DNA from: Actinokineospora sp. NBRC 105648
Lineage (GTDB): Bacteria; Actinomycetota; Actinomycetes; Mycobacteriales; Pseudonocardiaceae
Reading direction: 5' to 3'
NCBI RefSeq assembly: GCF_030269645.1
Contig: NZ_BSTR01000003.1
Location: forward strand, 186,001-250,000
DNA length: 64,000 nucleotides
Shown: one piece after another, positions 39,305 to 45,429 of the stretch
Layout: each line of letters begins with the position of its first letter
Numbering within the stretch: position 1 is the first letter of the stretch
The notes under the pieces: model-generated
Databases searched by the model: none
What the model was told of the DNA's origin: nothing
What the model saw: the letters and a program-made list of their open reading frames with translations, nothing else
Position numbers and translations under genes: made by a program

Positions 39305-40078
39305 TCAGAGTCGCCGGACGCGCAGGACGCCGGTCAGCATCGGGAGGGTGAACTCGCCGTGGCCGGTTTCTGGTCTGCCTGCGAGGAAAGCGCGGATCTT
39401 GTCGCACTTGGCCGCTCGGTCCCGTTCCGGCAGGACCAGCATCCCGGCGCGGGTCGCGAGTGTCTCGACGAGGGAGTCGGCGGTTCGGCGCTGACCGTGC
39501 GGGAACTCGGACTGCTCGGCCGAGCCGAACCGGGGGACCAGACCACTGTTCGGAAGGTGCAGGTCTGCCGTCGCGGCGCGCCAGTTGCTCAGCGTGTCCC
39601 GCGGGCCGATCGCCCCGGGGCCACTCACCCGTTCGAGGCCCGTGATCCACTCGACCCGGTCGTCCAGGACGTTCCACAGGCCGGCCAGGATGCCGCCGGG
39701 AACGAGGACCCTGGCGATCTCGGGTCCCGCGATGGCCATGTCGAACCAGTGCAGGGCATTGCCGGCGACCACAGCGTCAACGGACCCGTCGGGCAGCGCT
39801 AGTGCCTCGGCACTGCCCGAAAGGGCACGGACGGCCGGCAGCGCACGGCGCAGCTCGGTCAGCATCGCCGGGTCAGGCTCGACCGCGATGACCTCAGCGC
39901 CCAGCGCGACCAGCGTGGCGGTGAGCTTGCCGGTTCCGGCGCCGAGGTCGAGCACCCGGAGGCCGGGCGCGAGTTCCAGCGCCCAACGAACCGCGGCCCG
40001 TGCGTAGTCCGGGCGGTGCTCGGCGTAGGCGGTCGCCGCCGAGCCGAACGAGGATCCAAGGACTAGGCGTTCCTCCAC
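39305..40078 (-). CDS. Class I SAM-dependent methyltransferase (Methyltransf_11 type)
   Basis: 257 aa from GTG 40078 with GGAGGG upstream. FGSAATAYAEHRPDYARAAV at the start, motif I RVLDLGAGTGKLTATLVALG, motif II VIAVEPDPAMLTELRRAL and ALPDGSVDAVVAGNALHWFD. It resembles the trans-aconitate / UbiE-like group. The dif-like site lies 113 bases upstream of its start. Confidence 0.9.
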   Translation of the reverse strand: MEERLVLGSSFGSAATAYAEHRPDYARAAVRWALELAPGLRVLDLGAGTGKLTATLVALGAEVIAVEPDPAMLTELRRALPAVRALSGSAEALALPDGSVDAVVAGNALHWFDMAIAGPEIARVLVPGGILAGLWNVLDDRVEWITGLERVSGPGAIGPRDTLSNWRAATADLHLPNSGLVPRFGSAEQSEFPHGQRRTADSLVETLATRAGMLVLPERDRAAKCDKIRAFLAGRPETGHGEFTLPMLTGVLRVRRL

Positions 40079-40191
40079 GAGATCACCCTCCAGCAAGATC
40101 ACGAGTGGCGGGGCCCAGCCTAGGGAGGCGTCGTGGCTCAGCGCGAACAGGAACCAGCCCAACCGCGGCAGGGGACGGTCTCCAGCGCACT

Positions 40192-40219
40192 ACTTGACAT
40201 AATGTCGATTATCGAACAT
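40192..40219 (-). other. dif: Candidate chromosomal dif site (XerC/XerD target)
   Basis: Read on the minus strand: left arm ATGTTCGATAA, 6-base spacer TCGACA, right arm TTATGTCAAGT. The inner ATAA / TTAT halves match bacterial dif architecture, and the right arm matches what I recall of the actinobacterial dif XerD arm. It would be the chromosome-dimer resolution point and mark the replication terminus. Confidence 0.7.
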
Positions 40220-40450
40220 TGACCGACCCGCAGATCAACCCTGAAAGCGGCCGGTTCATACGTCACCGTGACGTTTCACCCCAAAGCGCCCGGATGTGCC
40301 TCCTGGGCGCCTGACAAGGCACTCCAGTGCGTGGTGGCGGATCGGCGGGCGCGCCAGGGGCGCAACGGGCACGAAAGGCGCGAATCGGCGCGCGAACGCG
40401 TTGGCGCGCACATGCCGTCCCCTGATCATCCTGAGCCGTCGAACACCTGT

Positions 40451-40478
40451 TTGATGGATAATCGCGGTTATCCATGGT
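40451..40478 (+). other. Second dif-like site upstream of the tyrosine recombinase
   Basis: Left arm TTGATGGATAA, spacer TCGCGG, right arm TTATCCATGGT. It is nearly symmetrical (ATGGATAA / TTATCCAT). It has the same 11-6-11 plan as the dif candidate 259 bases earlier but different arms. It could be a recombination site of the adjacent recombinase or its operator. Confidence 0.5.
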
Positions 40479-40517
40479 TCGCGAACTGTCGGTGTGGTCG
40501 GGTATGCACTGCGGGTG

Positions 40518-41498
40518 ATGTTGATCGAGGCGCAGGACGGGTTCTTCCTGGCTCGGCGGTCCCGCAAGGACTCGCCGCACACGACCGCGGCCTACCGGCG
40601 GGACCTGGCGGGGGTGTCGGCGCTGGTGGCCGAGGTGGTCGGCCGGGACGTCGGCGCCATCGGGCTCGACGAGGTGTCCGCGCAGGTGTTGCGAGAGGCG
40701 TTCGGGCTCTTCGCCGACACGCACGCCAAGAGTTCCGTGGCGCGGGCGTGGTCGACCTGGAACCAGTTCTTCCAGTTCTGCGTAGCCGACGGGCTCGCGG
40801 CGGGCAACCCGATGGGCGCGATCGGCAGACCGCGACCCGCTCCGCTGTCCCCCAAGCCGCTGCGCGGCGAGGAGACCCCCGAGCAGCTGCTCGCCGCGAT
40901 CGCTGGTGGGGCGCGCAAGGCGCGGGCGCCGTGGCCGGAGCGCGATCTGCTGGTGCTCGCCCTCGGCTTGGTCGCCGGGTTGCGGGCGGCCGAGATGCGG
41001 GCGCTGCGGCGGTCCTCTGTGGTCGGTCGGCCCGGTGAGCGGCGGCTCTACGTGCACGGCAAGGCGAACCGGGAGCGGTCGATCCCGATCGAGGCGCCGC
41101 TGGAACGGGTGATCGAGGCGTACCTGGCCTCGTGCGACGGGCGGTTCCCGGGAGCGCGGTTCGCCGCGGACTCGCCGTTCCTGCTGGGTTCCGACGGCGC
41201 CGGGATCGGGCGGGGTGCGCTGGATTACCTGGTCAAGGCGTGCTTCCGCGGTGCGGGGATGCATGACCGGGTGCCGGTGGGGGCGAACCTGCACGCGCTG
41301 CGGCACACCTTCGCCACGCGGTTGGCCGAGGACGGGGCGAACGCGGTGGAGATCATGATGCTGCTGGGGCACGCGAGCCTGAACACGAGTCAGAACTACA
41401 TCGACGCGACCGGGCGGGAGCGGCGCGCGGCGGCGGCGAGCAACCGGACCTACCGGGTGCTGGCGGAGCTGGCCGGGGACGAGGAGGCCGGTCAGTAG
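40518..41498 (+). CDS. XerC/D-like tyrosine recombinase
   Basis: 326 aa from ATG 40518 (MLIEAQDGFFLARRSRKDSP); GTG 40494 is the alternative. The N-terminal SAM-like core-binding domain includes SPHTTAAYRRDLAGVSALVA. Catalytic residues: R in VAGLRAAEMRALRRSSVV, K in LYVHGKANRERSIPI, H-x-x-R in LHALRHTFATRLAEDG, H in MLLGHASLNTSQNYI, with Tyr in QNYI. Length and layout are Xer-like rather than phage-integrase-like. The two dif-like sites lie immediately upstream. Whether it is the housekeeping Xer or a separate recombinase is unknown. Confidence 0.9.
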   Translation: MLIEAQDGFFLARRSRKDSPHTTAAYRRDLAGVSALVAEVVGRDVGAIGLDEVSAQVLREAFGLFADTHAKSSVARAWSTWNQFFQFCVADGLAAGNPMGAIGRPRPAPLSPKPLRGEETPEQLLAAIAGGARKARAPWPERDLLVLALGLVAGLRAAEMRALRRSSVVGRPGERRLYVHGKANRERSIPIEAPLERVIEAYLASCDGRFPGARFAADSPFLLGSDGAGIGRGALDYLVKACFRGAGMHDRVPVGANLHALRHTFATRLAEDGANAVEIMMLLGHASLNTSQNYIDATGRERRAAAASNRTYRVLAELAGDEEAGQ

Positions 41499-42487: not shown

Positions 42488-43180
42488 GTGCAGGAGGTGG
42501 TCCCGATCAACTCGACACCAGGAACCCAGCAGACCCGGCTGCTCGACGCGTTGAGCGCTGCCAGTTCAGGGACACGGCTCAGGGCGGCCCTGGCGGTGGG
42601 CACATACCCCGACCCCGGTCTCGTCGAAGCGCTCGTGGCGCGGTGCGCGGTCGAGCCGAACTTCTTCGTGCGCGACATGCTCACGTGGGCGTTGACCCGT
42701 TTCCCGTCGGAGTCCACGGTGCCCCGACTTGTCGCGGAGCTCGGTTCCGGGTGCGCGCAGGCGCGGAGCCAGGCGTTGCACACACTGTCCAAGATCGGGG
42801 ACGAGGGCGTGTGGCCCGCGATCACGCGGTCGTTGCTGTGCGACGCCGACGACGAGGTCGCGCGTAGCGCGTGGCGTGCCGCGGTCGTCCTCGTGCCTGC
42901 CGGGCAGGAGGAAGCGCTGGCCGCGGTGTTGGTCGCCCAGCTCGGTCGCGGCGACCGGGACGTGCGGCTGAGTCTGAGCCGAGCGCTGGTCGCGCTCGGG
43001 GACGTGATCGAGCCTGCCCTGCGGTCGGGGCTGGCGAGTGTGGACCCGACGGTGCGTGCCCATGCCCACGCGACGCTGCTGCTCCTGAGCGACCCGGAGG
43101 TCGGGTTCGATTCGGCCCTGGAGGAGGCGACCCGGGTCCTGGTGCTGGGTCCGGACCGGGCCGACGGCGCGGCGTGCTGA
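42488..43180 (+). CDS. HEAT-repeat protein
   Basis: 230 aa, all-helical. About five HEAT-like units with alternating helices (RLRAALAVGTYPDPGLVEAL; FVRDMLTWALTRFPSESTVP; RSQALHTLSKIGDEGVWPAI; VRLSLSRALVALGDVIEPAL; VRAHAHATLLLLSDPEVGFD). GTG start; since the inferred promoter lies very close, the true start could be slightly downstream. It overlaps the following MerR-HEAT gene, so both proteins are made together. It probably binds a partner protein, plausibly the MerR-HEAT protein itself (inference). Confidence 0.8.
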   Translation: MQEVVPINSTPGTQQTRLLDALSAASSGTRLRAALAVGTYPDPGLVEALVARCAVEPNFFVRDMLTWALTRFPSESTVPRLVAELGSGCAQARSQALHTLSKIGDEGVWPAITRSLLCDADDEVARSAWRAAVVLVPAGQEEALAAVLVAQLGRGDRDVRLSLSRALVALGDVIEPALRSGLASVDPTVRAHAHATLLLLSDPEVGFDSALEEATRVLVLGPDRADGAAC

Positions 43181-44187
43181 TCGGGGAGGTGGCCCGCCGG
43201 GCGGGGGTGAGTACCCGGATGCTGCGGCACTACGACTCCCTCGGGCTGGTGCGGCCGACAGGTCGCACCGTGGGTGGCTACCGCGAGTACTCCGCCGAGG
43301 ACATCCGTCGGATCTTCCACGTGGAGAGCCTGCGGTCGCTGGGCTTGTCGTTGCGGCAGGTCGGTCGCGCGCTGGCGGATCCCGCGTTCACGCCGTCCGC
43401 GCTGGTCGGCGACCTGATCCGGCGGACCGAGGACCGGCTGGGCCGGGAACGGGAGCTGCTCGACCGGCTGCGCGCGATCGACGCGTCGTCGCCGTCCGGT
43501 TGGGAGGGCGTGCTGCGTGTCGTGGAGTTGTTGCAGGGGCTCGCCTCGCCCAGTGCCGCGCGCAGGCAGCAGGCGGTCCTGGCCCCGGCCGAGGAGGTGC
43601 CGGTCCCGGTCGAGGTGTTGGCCGGGGCGGTCCTGGCCGAATCGGATCCGAACGTCGCGGGTGCCCTGCGGTGGGCCTTGGCGAGGTCGGGTGGGGGCGG
43701 TGTGGCGAGCGTGGCGTCCGGGGCGTATTCGGCGAATGTGGACATCCGGCGGCGGGCGGTCCTGGCGATCGCCGAGATGCCCGGGGACGAGGCGGACGCG
43801 GTGCTCGCGGACGCGCTCGGGGATTCGGACTCGACGGTGCGCGGGCATGCCGCTCTGGCGTTGGGCGCGCGTGGTGGGACCGCGGCCGTGCCGGTGCTGG
43901 TGGGCATGGTGGTCGAGGGCAGGAACGATGTGGAGGCGGCCGAGGTCCTGGGGGCGCTGGCGGCGGATCCCGGGCGGGCGGAGCGGATCATGGGTGCGCT
44001 GGTCGACGAGCTCGCCGCGCACGCGGCGGACTTCGGGGTGCGGATTCGCCTGGTCCAGGCTCTGGCCGAGATGCCTGCCGCCGTCGGGCTGGGGGTTCTG
44101 CGGCAGTTGGCAGGCGATGATGATCGTGCTGTCGCCCTGGTCGCCTCGGCGTTCGTGGGGGTGCTCGAAGGGCGGGGTGGCGGCTGA
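43174..44187 (+). CDS. MerR regulator fused to HEAT repeats
   Basis: 337 aa; GTG start lies inside the preceding gene, 4 bases before the end of its stop. The MerR DNA-binding domain covers residues 1-75: LIGEVARRAGVSTRMLRHYD, SLGLVRPTGRTVGGYREYSA, SLGLSLRQVGRALADPAF. A linker coiled coil follows. Residues about 130-330 are HEAT-type helical repeats (VAGALRWALARSGGGGVASV; DIRRRAVLAIAEMPGDEADA; VRGHAALALGARGGTAAVPV). No metal-binding Cys pair is visible. The upstream dyad suggests autoregulation. Confidence 0.85.
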   Translation: MLIGEVARRAGVSTRMLRHYDSLGLVRPTGRTVGGYREYSAEDIRRIFHVESLRSLGLSLRQVGRALADPAFTPSALVGDLIRRTEDRLGRERELLDRLRAIDASSPSGWEGVLRVVELLQGLASPSAARRQQAVLAPAEEVPVPVEVLAGAVLAESDPNVAGALRWALARSGGGGVASVASGAYSANVDIRRRAVLAIAEMPGDEADAVLADALGDSDSTVRGHAALALGARGGTAAVPVLVGMVVEGRNDVEAAEVLGALAADPGRAERIMGALVDELAAHAADFGVRIRLVQALAEMPAAVGLGVLRQLAGDDDRAVALVASAFVGVLEGRGGG

Positions 44188-44196
44188 GGTCGTTTG

Positions 44197-45429
44197 TCAG
44201 TGGCTTGGTCTGGGCGGGGTTTCCGGGGTTGGGGGGCGTAGGGCGTCGGCCACTAGGTCCACTGCGCTGCGGGAGGGGTCGCGGGCGGCGTTGTTGTAGA
44301 CCTGTTCTGTGGTGTCGATGCTGGTGTGGCCCACGTCGGCCTGGATGTGGACGAGTTGGGCGCCTGCTTCGACGGCGGTGGTGACGTAGAAGTGGCGTAG
44401 GGCGTGGGGGTGCATGGCGTCGGCGATGTCGTGGAGGGGGTCGCCCGCGGTTCTGGCCAGGCGGCGGAGGAGTTGCCAGATGGCTTGGCGTTGGTAGCGG
44501 TTGCCGGTTCTGGTGATGAGCAGTGGGGTGGGTGGGCCGTGGTGGGTGCCGCGGCGGGTGGGGGTGGTGTTGGTGGGGTCGGCGGCGTCTCGGGTGCGCA
44601 GGTAGGTGGTGATGGCGCGGTCGGCCATGGTGGAGAGGTAGACGATGCGGGTTTTGCCGCCTTTGCCGTGGACGCGCAGGGCGCGGCGGCCGCGGGTGAC
44701 GTGCAGGTCGGCGCGGTCGAGGGCGCAGAGTTCGCTGACGCGCAGGCCCAGGGTGAACAGGGCGACGACGGCGGAGGCGCGGGCGGTGTCGAGGGGGCCG
44801 TTGCCCCGGCGGGGGGTGGCCGCGGTGTCGATGAGGGTGCGGACCTGGTCGGTGGTGAGGGTGACGGTGCTGGTGGTGCTGCCGGTGGGGACGACCAGGC
44901 CGAGGCGGCGGCGGTCGAGGGCGGCGGGGTTGCCGGTGGTGAGGCCGGTGTCGGCGAGGTGGGTGTAGAGGGCTTTGAGGGTGGCGAGCATGCGGTCGCG
45001 GGTGGCCGGGGCGGTGCCGGCGTCGGTGAGGGCGGTGAGCCAGTCCTTGACGTCGGTGGTGCGGGCGGTGCGGGGGTCGTGGCCGTGTCGGGCGCACCAG
45101 CGGAACCAGTGCAGATGGCGGTAGCGGCCTCGGGGGGCGGGTGGGGGGCGGTGCGCGGCGGGTGGGGGTTTGCCGGTGCCGACGGCGGCGGCGTAGGTGG
45201 TGAGGGCGGTGTCCCAGGTGGGGTCGGCGGTGCCTGCCCAGTCGGTGATGTCGTGGGCGGTGACGGGCAGGCCGAGTCCTTCGGCGTAGGTGCGGCGGGT
45301 GGCGCGGTTACCGTAGCCGGTGAGCCAGTCGGTGATCGCGGTGAGCAGGTCGGTGGGGTTGTCGACGCCGGGCCAGGTGGTCTGACCGGTGCTGGGCTCG
45401 ATCGCGTTCACCGGGCAAGGATCGCGCAC
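44197..45429 (-). CDS. Tyrosine-type recombinase/integrase
   Basis: 410 aa (start 45429; GTG 45411 is the alternative). A long N-terminal arm and core-binding domain (RYRHLHWFRWCARHGHDPRT) precede the catalytic domain: R in LGLRVSELCALDRADLHV, K in RVHGKGGKTRIVYLS, H-x-x-R in HPHALRHFYVTTAVEAG, H in QADVGHTSIDTTEQVYNN, with the final Tyr in EQVY. It is larger than Xer proteins and belongs to the phage-integrase-like group. It converges on the MerR-HEAT gene with a 9-base gap. No attachment site was recognised next to it. Confidence 0.9.
   Translation of the reverse strand: MRDPCPVNAIEPSTGQTTWPGVDNPTDLLTAITDWLTGYGNRATRRTYAEGLGLPVTAHDITDWAGTADPTWDTALTTYAAAVGTGKPPPAAHRPPPAPRGRYRHLHWFRWCARHGHDPRTARTTDVKDWLTALTDAGTAPATRDRMLATLKALYTHLADTGLTTGNPAALDRRRLGLVVPTGSTTSTVTLTTDQVRTLIDTAATPRRGNGPLDTARASAVVALFTLGLRVSELCALDRADLHVTRGRRALRVHGKGGKTRIVYLSTMADRAITTYLRTRDAADPTNTTPTRRGTHHGPPTPLLITRTGNRYQRQAIWQLLRRLARTAGDPLHDIADAMHPHALRHFYVTTAVEAGAQLVHIQADVGHTSIDTTEQVYNNAARDPSRSAVDLVADALRPPTPETPPRPSH

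Follow-up and report, generated by a model that had tools for sequence, protein, structure and literature searches.

The site at 40192-40219 is very likely the chromosomal dif, of the textbook actinobacterial type, and it is accompanied by a second Xer-type site, a 13-bp palindrome and the gene of a further Xer-like tyrosine recombinase. Positions refer to the window, the whole stretch of 64,000 nucleotides of Actinokineospora sp. NBRC 105648 DNA that was analysed. The arrangement is best explained as a plasmid-type single-recombinase resolution module that has been domesticated beside dif; we consider this explanation likely, with the activity of the module being inferred. The following features carry the argument:

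40192-40219, minus strand: dif in the 11-6-11 layout, with XerC arm ATGTTCGATAA and XerD arm TTATGTCAAGT as read on the minus strand
40261-40273, no strand assigned: 13-bp palindrome CGTCACCGTGACG, separated by 41 bp from dif and by 177 bp from the second site
40451-40478, plus strand: second Xer-type site, TTGATGGATAA-TCGCGG-TTATCCATGGT, with near-palindromic arms, candidate substrate of the neighbouring recombinase
40494-41498, plus strand: gene of the Xer-like tyrosine recombinase P0001, with its likely true start at GTG 40515 or ATG 40518

Identity and Position of the dif Site

On the plus strand, the 28 bases at 40192-40219 read ACTTGACATAA-TGTCGA-TTATCGAACAT, corresponding to ATGTTCGATAA-TCGACA-TTATGTCAAGT on the minus strand. 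The XerD arm TTATGTCAAGT and the core are identical to those of CACGCCGATAATGCACATTATGTCAAGT, the suggested actinobacterial dif of Frankia alni (PMC3025954). When the genome (8,428,408 bases, a draft in 149 contigs) was scanned with the pattern TTGACATAA-N6-TTAT-N3-ACA, a single match without mismatches was returned, the runners-up having 3 mismatches. A 15-base part of dif is expected by chance 0.0001 times per genome on base composition only, and the shorter pattern ATAA-N6-TTAT occurs just twice in the window, at dif and at 40451. The site is flanked by a methyltransferase ORF (39305-40162, minus strand) and the recombinase ORF (40494-41498, plus strand), which leave an ORF-free gap of about 330 bp. 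A canonical XerD is encoded on another contig (337.7 bits against a cut-off of 329.6), as is a canonical XerC, whose best model reaches 287 bits, below the cut-off of 335, and which has an N-terminal extension; the neighbours of these XerC/XerD genes are what we take to be a NUDIX protein and a WhiG-like sigma factor, both named from a reading of their sequences. Within the family, the dif pattern (up to 2 mismatches) is present in 185 of 200 Pseudonocardiaceae genomes. The assignment rests on the match to the Frankia alni arm, the presence of XerC and XerD in the genome and the single copy, while binding and recombination by XerCD are inferred.

A sequence-only reading had proposed a 28-bp site with 11-6-11 layout, a second minus-strand arm equal to the actinobacterial dif arm, and a location free of genes. 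All three claims held, the first down to the exact bases, and the single-copy check that it suggested was passed, with no better match found genome-wide. The second site, the 13-bp palindrome and the adjoining recombinase gene had been overlooked.

The same reading placed the replication terminus in the window, for which the complete relatives offer support. The distance between dif and oriC is beyond reach in the draft genome itself. Among relatives, dnaA was sought in 19 genomes, three of which (G012, G079 and G101) were left out of the count; in 15 of the remaining 16, all with exact lengths and listed dif positions, dif lies at 0.47-0.54 of the circle from dnaA, opposite to it, the exception being G003 at 0.354. 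The switch in GC skew that had been expected at the site failed to appear. Skew averages +0.006 to the left and +0.023 to the right of dif across the 373-kb contig, and the 20 samples taken from the complete relative G055 average -0.022 and -0.011, with no switch at dif in either case; samples from G179 were likewise uninformative on the terminus. An inversion of the skew has been reported at the dif of Kutzneria albida (PMC4210621). Here the skew is weak and uninformative on the terminus, and we regard it as supporting evidence only, outside the definition of dif. Polar octamers derived from G055 (best z 4.1, 1567 tested) were also tried and abandoned as too weak, showing no polarity switch at the dif of the contig.

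A Second Xer-Type Site with Symmetric Arms

Between dif and the recombinase gene lies a second 28-bp site with the consensus TTSATGSATAA-N6-TTATSCATSAA, which keeps strictly to the 11-6-11 layout of Xer sites while its central hexamer varies. Dyad symmetry of the outer arms extends on average to 5.5 of 7 bases, versus 0.94 of 7 in 54 dif sequences. The arms also covary: among 76 distinct sites, positions 7 and 22 are paired in 64 (38.2 in shuffles, with none of 2000 reaching the observed value) and positions 4 and 25 in 56 (46.7 in shuffles, 1 of 2000). Covariation is weak at positions 1 and 28 (58 of 2000 shuffles) and not clear at 3 and 26 (265 of 2000). It has to be kept in mind that the shuffles ignore relatedness and that related site sequences are not independent. 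Since the arms are dyad-symmetric and covary, we read them as being bound by one protein, unlike the arms of dif with XerC and XerD. The second site would then be the own, dyad-armed site of a single enzyme, with binding remaining an inference.

The order of the elements is well preserved in the 80 named loci that were kept of the 132 found: dif precedes the gene in the same orientation in 78 of them, and the second site precedes it in 79. Of the loci that deviate, L168 has a contig that starts 175 bp ahead of the gene, and L154 (Actinoalloteichus) shows neither dif nor the second site within 8 kb. One strain is represented twice in the count, by its scaffolds L156 and L157, which share the same arrangement. 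Dif and the second site are separated by a median of 291 bp (227-610 bp, with one case of 4188 bp), and 15 to 4585 bp lie between the second site and the gene. Gaps above 650 bp occur between dif and site in 1 of 78 loci and between site and gene in 10 of 78. In 52 of the 78, the site is found 17-113 bp from the matched gene start.

The palindrome CGTCACNGTGACG is present in exact form between dif and the second site in 54 of 105 distinct loci. This amounts to 54 exact copies in 42,752 bp between the two sites versus 1 in 1,342,151 bp outside, and the copy at 40261-40273 is the sole exact match in the 373-kb contig. Many loci carry it about midway between dif and the second site. It is degraded in Lentzea and not recognisable in Kribbella. 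The 13-mer remains with dif and the second site where the gene is distant, and with the second site where dif is distant (G017). We infer that it is a candidate site for an accessory protein, which is as yet unidentified.

The Adjoining Recombinase

P0001 contains the Pfam domains Phage_integrase (67.3 bits) and Phage_int_SAM_1, and its catalytic residues R, K, HxxR, H and Y are all conserved across 12 orthologues. None of the cut-offs of the NCBIfam XerC, XerD, XerS and XerA equivalogs was reached (best score 137.5 bits against 335.15), and P0001 is neither XerC nor XerD, both of which are encoded elsewhere in the genome. The structure model (mean pLDDT 75.9, pTM 0.54) is matched best by XerD, XerA, the Brujita integrase and XerH; TM-scores are near 0.4, and we therefore accept only the general fold. 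Orthologues with 63-100% identity occur in 73 of the 200 family genomes and orthologues with 49-54% identity in 34, and at E 1e-40 the protein is found in only 4 of 396 sampled genomes of the phylum, its own genome included.

Several other elements are located nearby. At 40485-40520, a conserved stretch similar to TTGTCGGTG...GGTAYAAGAT extends in relatives into the beginning of the recombinase ORF and resembles a promoter with the start directly downstream. The minus-strand gene at 44197-45429, 4 kb from dif, encodes a second Xer-like tyrosine recombinase (139 bits with the XerD model, below the cut-off). It was considered as a partner and rejected, the sole match near dif being one of 52% identity in 1 of 26 relatives. 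The plus-strand gene at 42871-44187 combines a MerR-type DNA-binding domain and HEAT repeats in a single chain.

Linkage of Gene, Site and dif

The gene and the second site occur together. With the site pattern at up to 1 mismatch (109 genomes) and the gene at E 1e-40 (107 genomes), 107 of 200 Pseudonocardiaceae genomes, from 23 genera, have both, none has the gene alone, 2 have the pattern alone and 91 have neither. The two genomes with the pattern alone (G044 and G077) were rejected as cases of a site without the gene: the match is part of a conserved coding sequence, its dyad is wrong, and this sequence recurs as a second match in other genera. All 107 gene-bearing genomes have dif, and the 15 genomes without a dif match all lack the gene. 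No second site was detected near dif in 23 loci from 17 gene-less genomes, in which stretches of about 2-10 kb were scanned. When 12 genes of the window were followed in 26 relatives, only the recombinase adjoined dif across genera; the gene of an RluA-like pseudouridine synthase stays near dif within Actinokineospora.

The relation between site and dif becomes clearer where the gene has moved away. Measurement was possible in 26 of the 34 genomes that carry the 49-54% orthologue. In every one of the 26, 335-659 bp separate the start of the second site from that of dif, the site being on the XerC-arm side, and the gene is located on a different contig or no closer than 120 kb. The distance between the second site and dif stays at about 0.25-0.65 kb, with the site on the side of the XerC arm, even when the gene is 120 kb to more than 1 Mb distant; in G023, too, dif and site are 535 bp apart and the gene is about 530 kb away. 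In G403, from another family, the order dif, site and gene is retained with dif inverted, so that the site is on the opposite side of dif. The closeness of site and dif is tighter than location in the terminus alone would require, which points at a coupling of the two, with shared ancestry of the arrangement as a possible alternative.

Relatives on Plasmids and in Other Lineages

Homologues of P0001 with 30-40% identity were detected in 60 PLSDB plasmid records, chiefly from Mycobacterium and Rhodococcus with a few other genera, and none in phage records. A 28-bp site of like type precedes the gene by 94-924 bp in 9 of 12 plasmid regions, one of them with an altered core. The other 3 lack such a site, two of these having an IS element just upstream. 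In one plasmid, the 13-mer occurs as well, 224 bp ahead of the site. The chromosomal module resembles a plasmid multimer resolution module in its protein family and its type of site, multimer resolution itself being inferred.

A quick tree, for which XerC and XerD were chosen as outgroup, resolves the plasmid and the chromosomal sequences as two clades joined at an SH-aLRT of 80, with long-branch warnings. Recombinases of Kribbella (L152, L158 and L161 placed) nest among those of Pseudonocardiaceae, which suggests transfer. The Kribbella loci L152, L158, L161, L169, L170 and L172, counting a record named Streptomyces sp. SID13031, have the module beside a dif with the altered arm AGTTGACATAA.

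Some further occurrences stand apart. Genome G157 has a 176-kb contig (C55) with a ParA-type gene, a second dif-like site and a second palindromic site (L252, 6710 and 8033), whose arms are as on the chromosome and whose central bases differ; a recombinase homologue is absent. Such a contig might be a secondary replicon relying on host enzymes, its status as a plasmid being unproven. A Rhodococcus plasmid (L282, 4394) has two tyrosine recombinase genes, the second of which is preceded by a further palindromic site. Scanning of IMG/VR for the palindromic site returned one AT-rich contig without evident relation.

Proposed Mechanism

In the explanation that we favour, the canonical XerC and XerD, encoded elsewhere, would resolve chromosome dimers at dif, while the single Xer-like recombinase would occupy the two nearly identical arms of a 28-bp site of its own. 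It would assemble on the site in each sister terminus and carry out strand exchange in the manner of XerS, XerH or XerL, and an accessory protein would probably act on the 13-bp palindrome. Accessory proteins are known to act at plasmid resolution sites such as cer. The plasmid-carried modules would most likely resolve plasmid multimers, and the chromosomal module of Pseudonocardiaceae and Kribbella would most likely offer sister termini a second or a conditional means of resolution. Binding by the gene product, recombination at the second site, the accessory role of the 13-mer and dimer resolution are all inferred at this point. Crossovers at both sites, separated by only a few hundred bp, would undo each other, and we infer that a single event involves either dif or the second site, resolution requiring an odd number of crossovers. 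What speaks against this explanation is that no recombination has been demonstrated. Further points against it are the closeness of the site to the gene start in 52 of 78 loci, the three plasmid regions without a site, the weak or unclear covariation at two of the position pairs, the absence of an exact 13-mer from about half of the loci, the opposite side of the site in G403, and the support of only 80 in a quick, long-branched tree on which the kinship to the plasmid clade depends.

A bolder reading sees in Pseudonocardiaceae chromosomes a composite terminus with two independent Xer systems, in which the protein bound to the 13-mer decides which of them fires, because firing of both would undo resolution. 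We hold it to be less likely than not.

Alternative Explanations

The palindromic site could instead be an operator, controlling transcription of the recombinase through its own protein or a regulator, with no second recombination site present. The 17-113 bp between site and gene start in 52 of 78 loci agree with this, and an operator role is therefore not excluded in those loci. However, the site follows dif and not the gene in all 26 distant-gene genomes and in G023 (530 kb), and since it keeps with dif after the gene has parted, the operator reading fails to explain its conservation. Its strict Xer-type 11-6-11 spacing and the variability of the central hexamers also argue against an operator, and overall we find this reading unlikely. 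A structural role is harder to dismiss and remains possible: the recombinase bound at the site, together with a 13-mer protein, might aid XerCD-dif synapsis or cohesion of the sister termini without strand exchange. The tight distance to dif wherever the gene lies and the 13-mer midway in many loci would suit such a role, but the catalytic residues are all conserved, and the plasmid relatives carry a like site type beside their own recombinase (the plasmids were not scanned for dif).

An IMEX-type mobile element integrated at or near dif, leaving behind an integrase and one attachment site, would account for the plasmid-borne homologues and for the transfer suggested by the nesting of Kribbella in Pseudonocardiaceae. 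Yet there is only a single dif, without a second copy flanking an element, and no common cargo, the recombinase being the only one of 12 window genes that adjoins dif across genera in the 26 relatives; with gene and site jointly conserved in 107 of 200 genomes and 23 genera, this origin appears improbable. Least convincing is a plain dif to which the recombinase and the palindrome are unrelated passengers. Family genomes with dif and without gene and site do exist, and dif is therefore independent of both, but the passenger view is contradicted by the co-occurrence of gene and site and by their constant closeness and side relative to dif, and we hold it to be very unlikely.

Significance and Comparison with Known Systems

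A chromosome is commonly taken to require a single resolution system. In the present case another has apparently been kept beside the first across more than 20 genera, and one may ask how a terminus can accommodate both. As two nearby crossovers cancel, the cell must choose between them, or else the second site serves another role, such as synapsis, decatenation or septation-specific resolution. This question of terminus management is directly testable by deletion of the gene. In addition, putative cognate pairs of site and recombinase can now be named for a little-studied family of Mycobacterium and Rhodococcus plasmid recombinases. Neither a second site at dif nor a recombinase of the P0001 type was found reported in the open-access literature searched, subscription papers being mostly outside its scope.

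In comparison with the Frankia-type XerCD/dif of Actinobacteria, the 28 bp, the arms, the single copy and the presence of both XerC and XerD are the same, and the dif of 15 of 16 complete relatives is antipodal to dnaA as in those systems; the difference is that dif is here adjoined by another site of Xer type and, in most cases, by the gene of a third recombinase. With the Mycobacterium and Rhodococcus plasmid recombinases the module shares 30-40% protein identity, the like type of site in 9 of 12 regions and the 13-mer in one. These relatives are plasmid-borne and annotated merely as tyrosine-type recombinase or integrase, whereas the chromosomal form adjoins dif. In XerS/difSL, XerH/difH and XerL/dif, one recombinase with its own site near the terminus replaces XerCD (PMC5357621, PMC9765430). 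Like these, the module pairs one recombinase with a dyad-symmetric site near the terminus, and as in XerS/difSL the gene adjoins the site. In contrast to all three, XerC, XerD and dif are retained, and the module is not the sole Xer system of the chromosome. Because XerCD/dif is kept and the cut-offs are missed, it is by definition not XerS, XerH, XerA or XerL.
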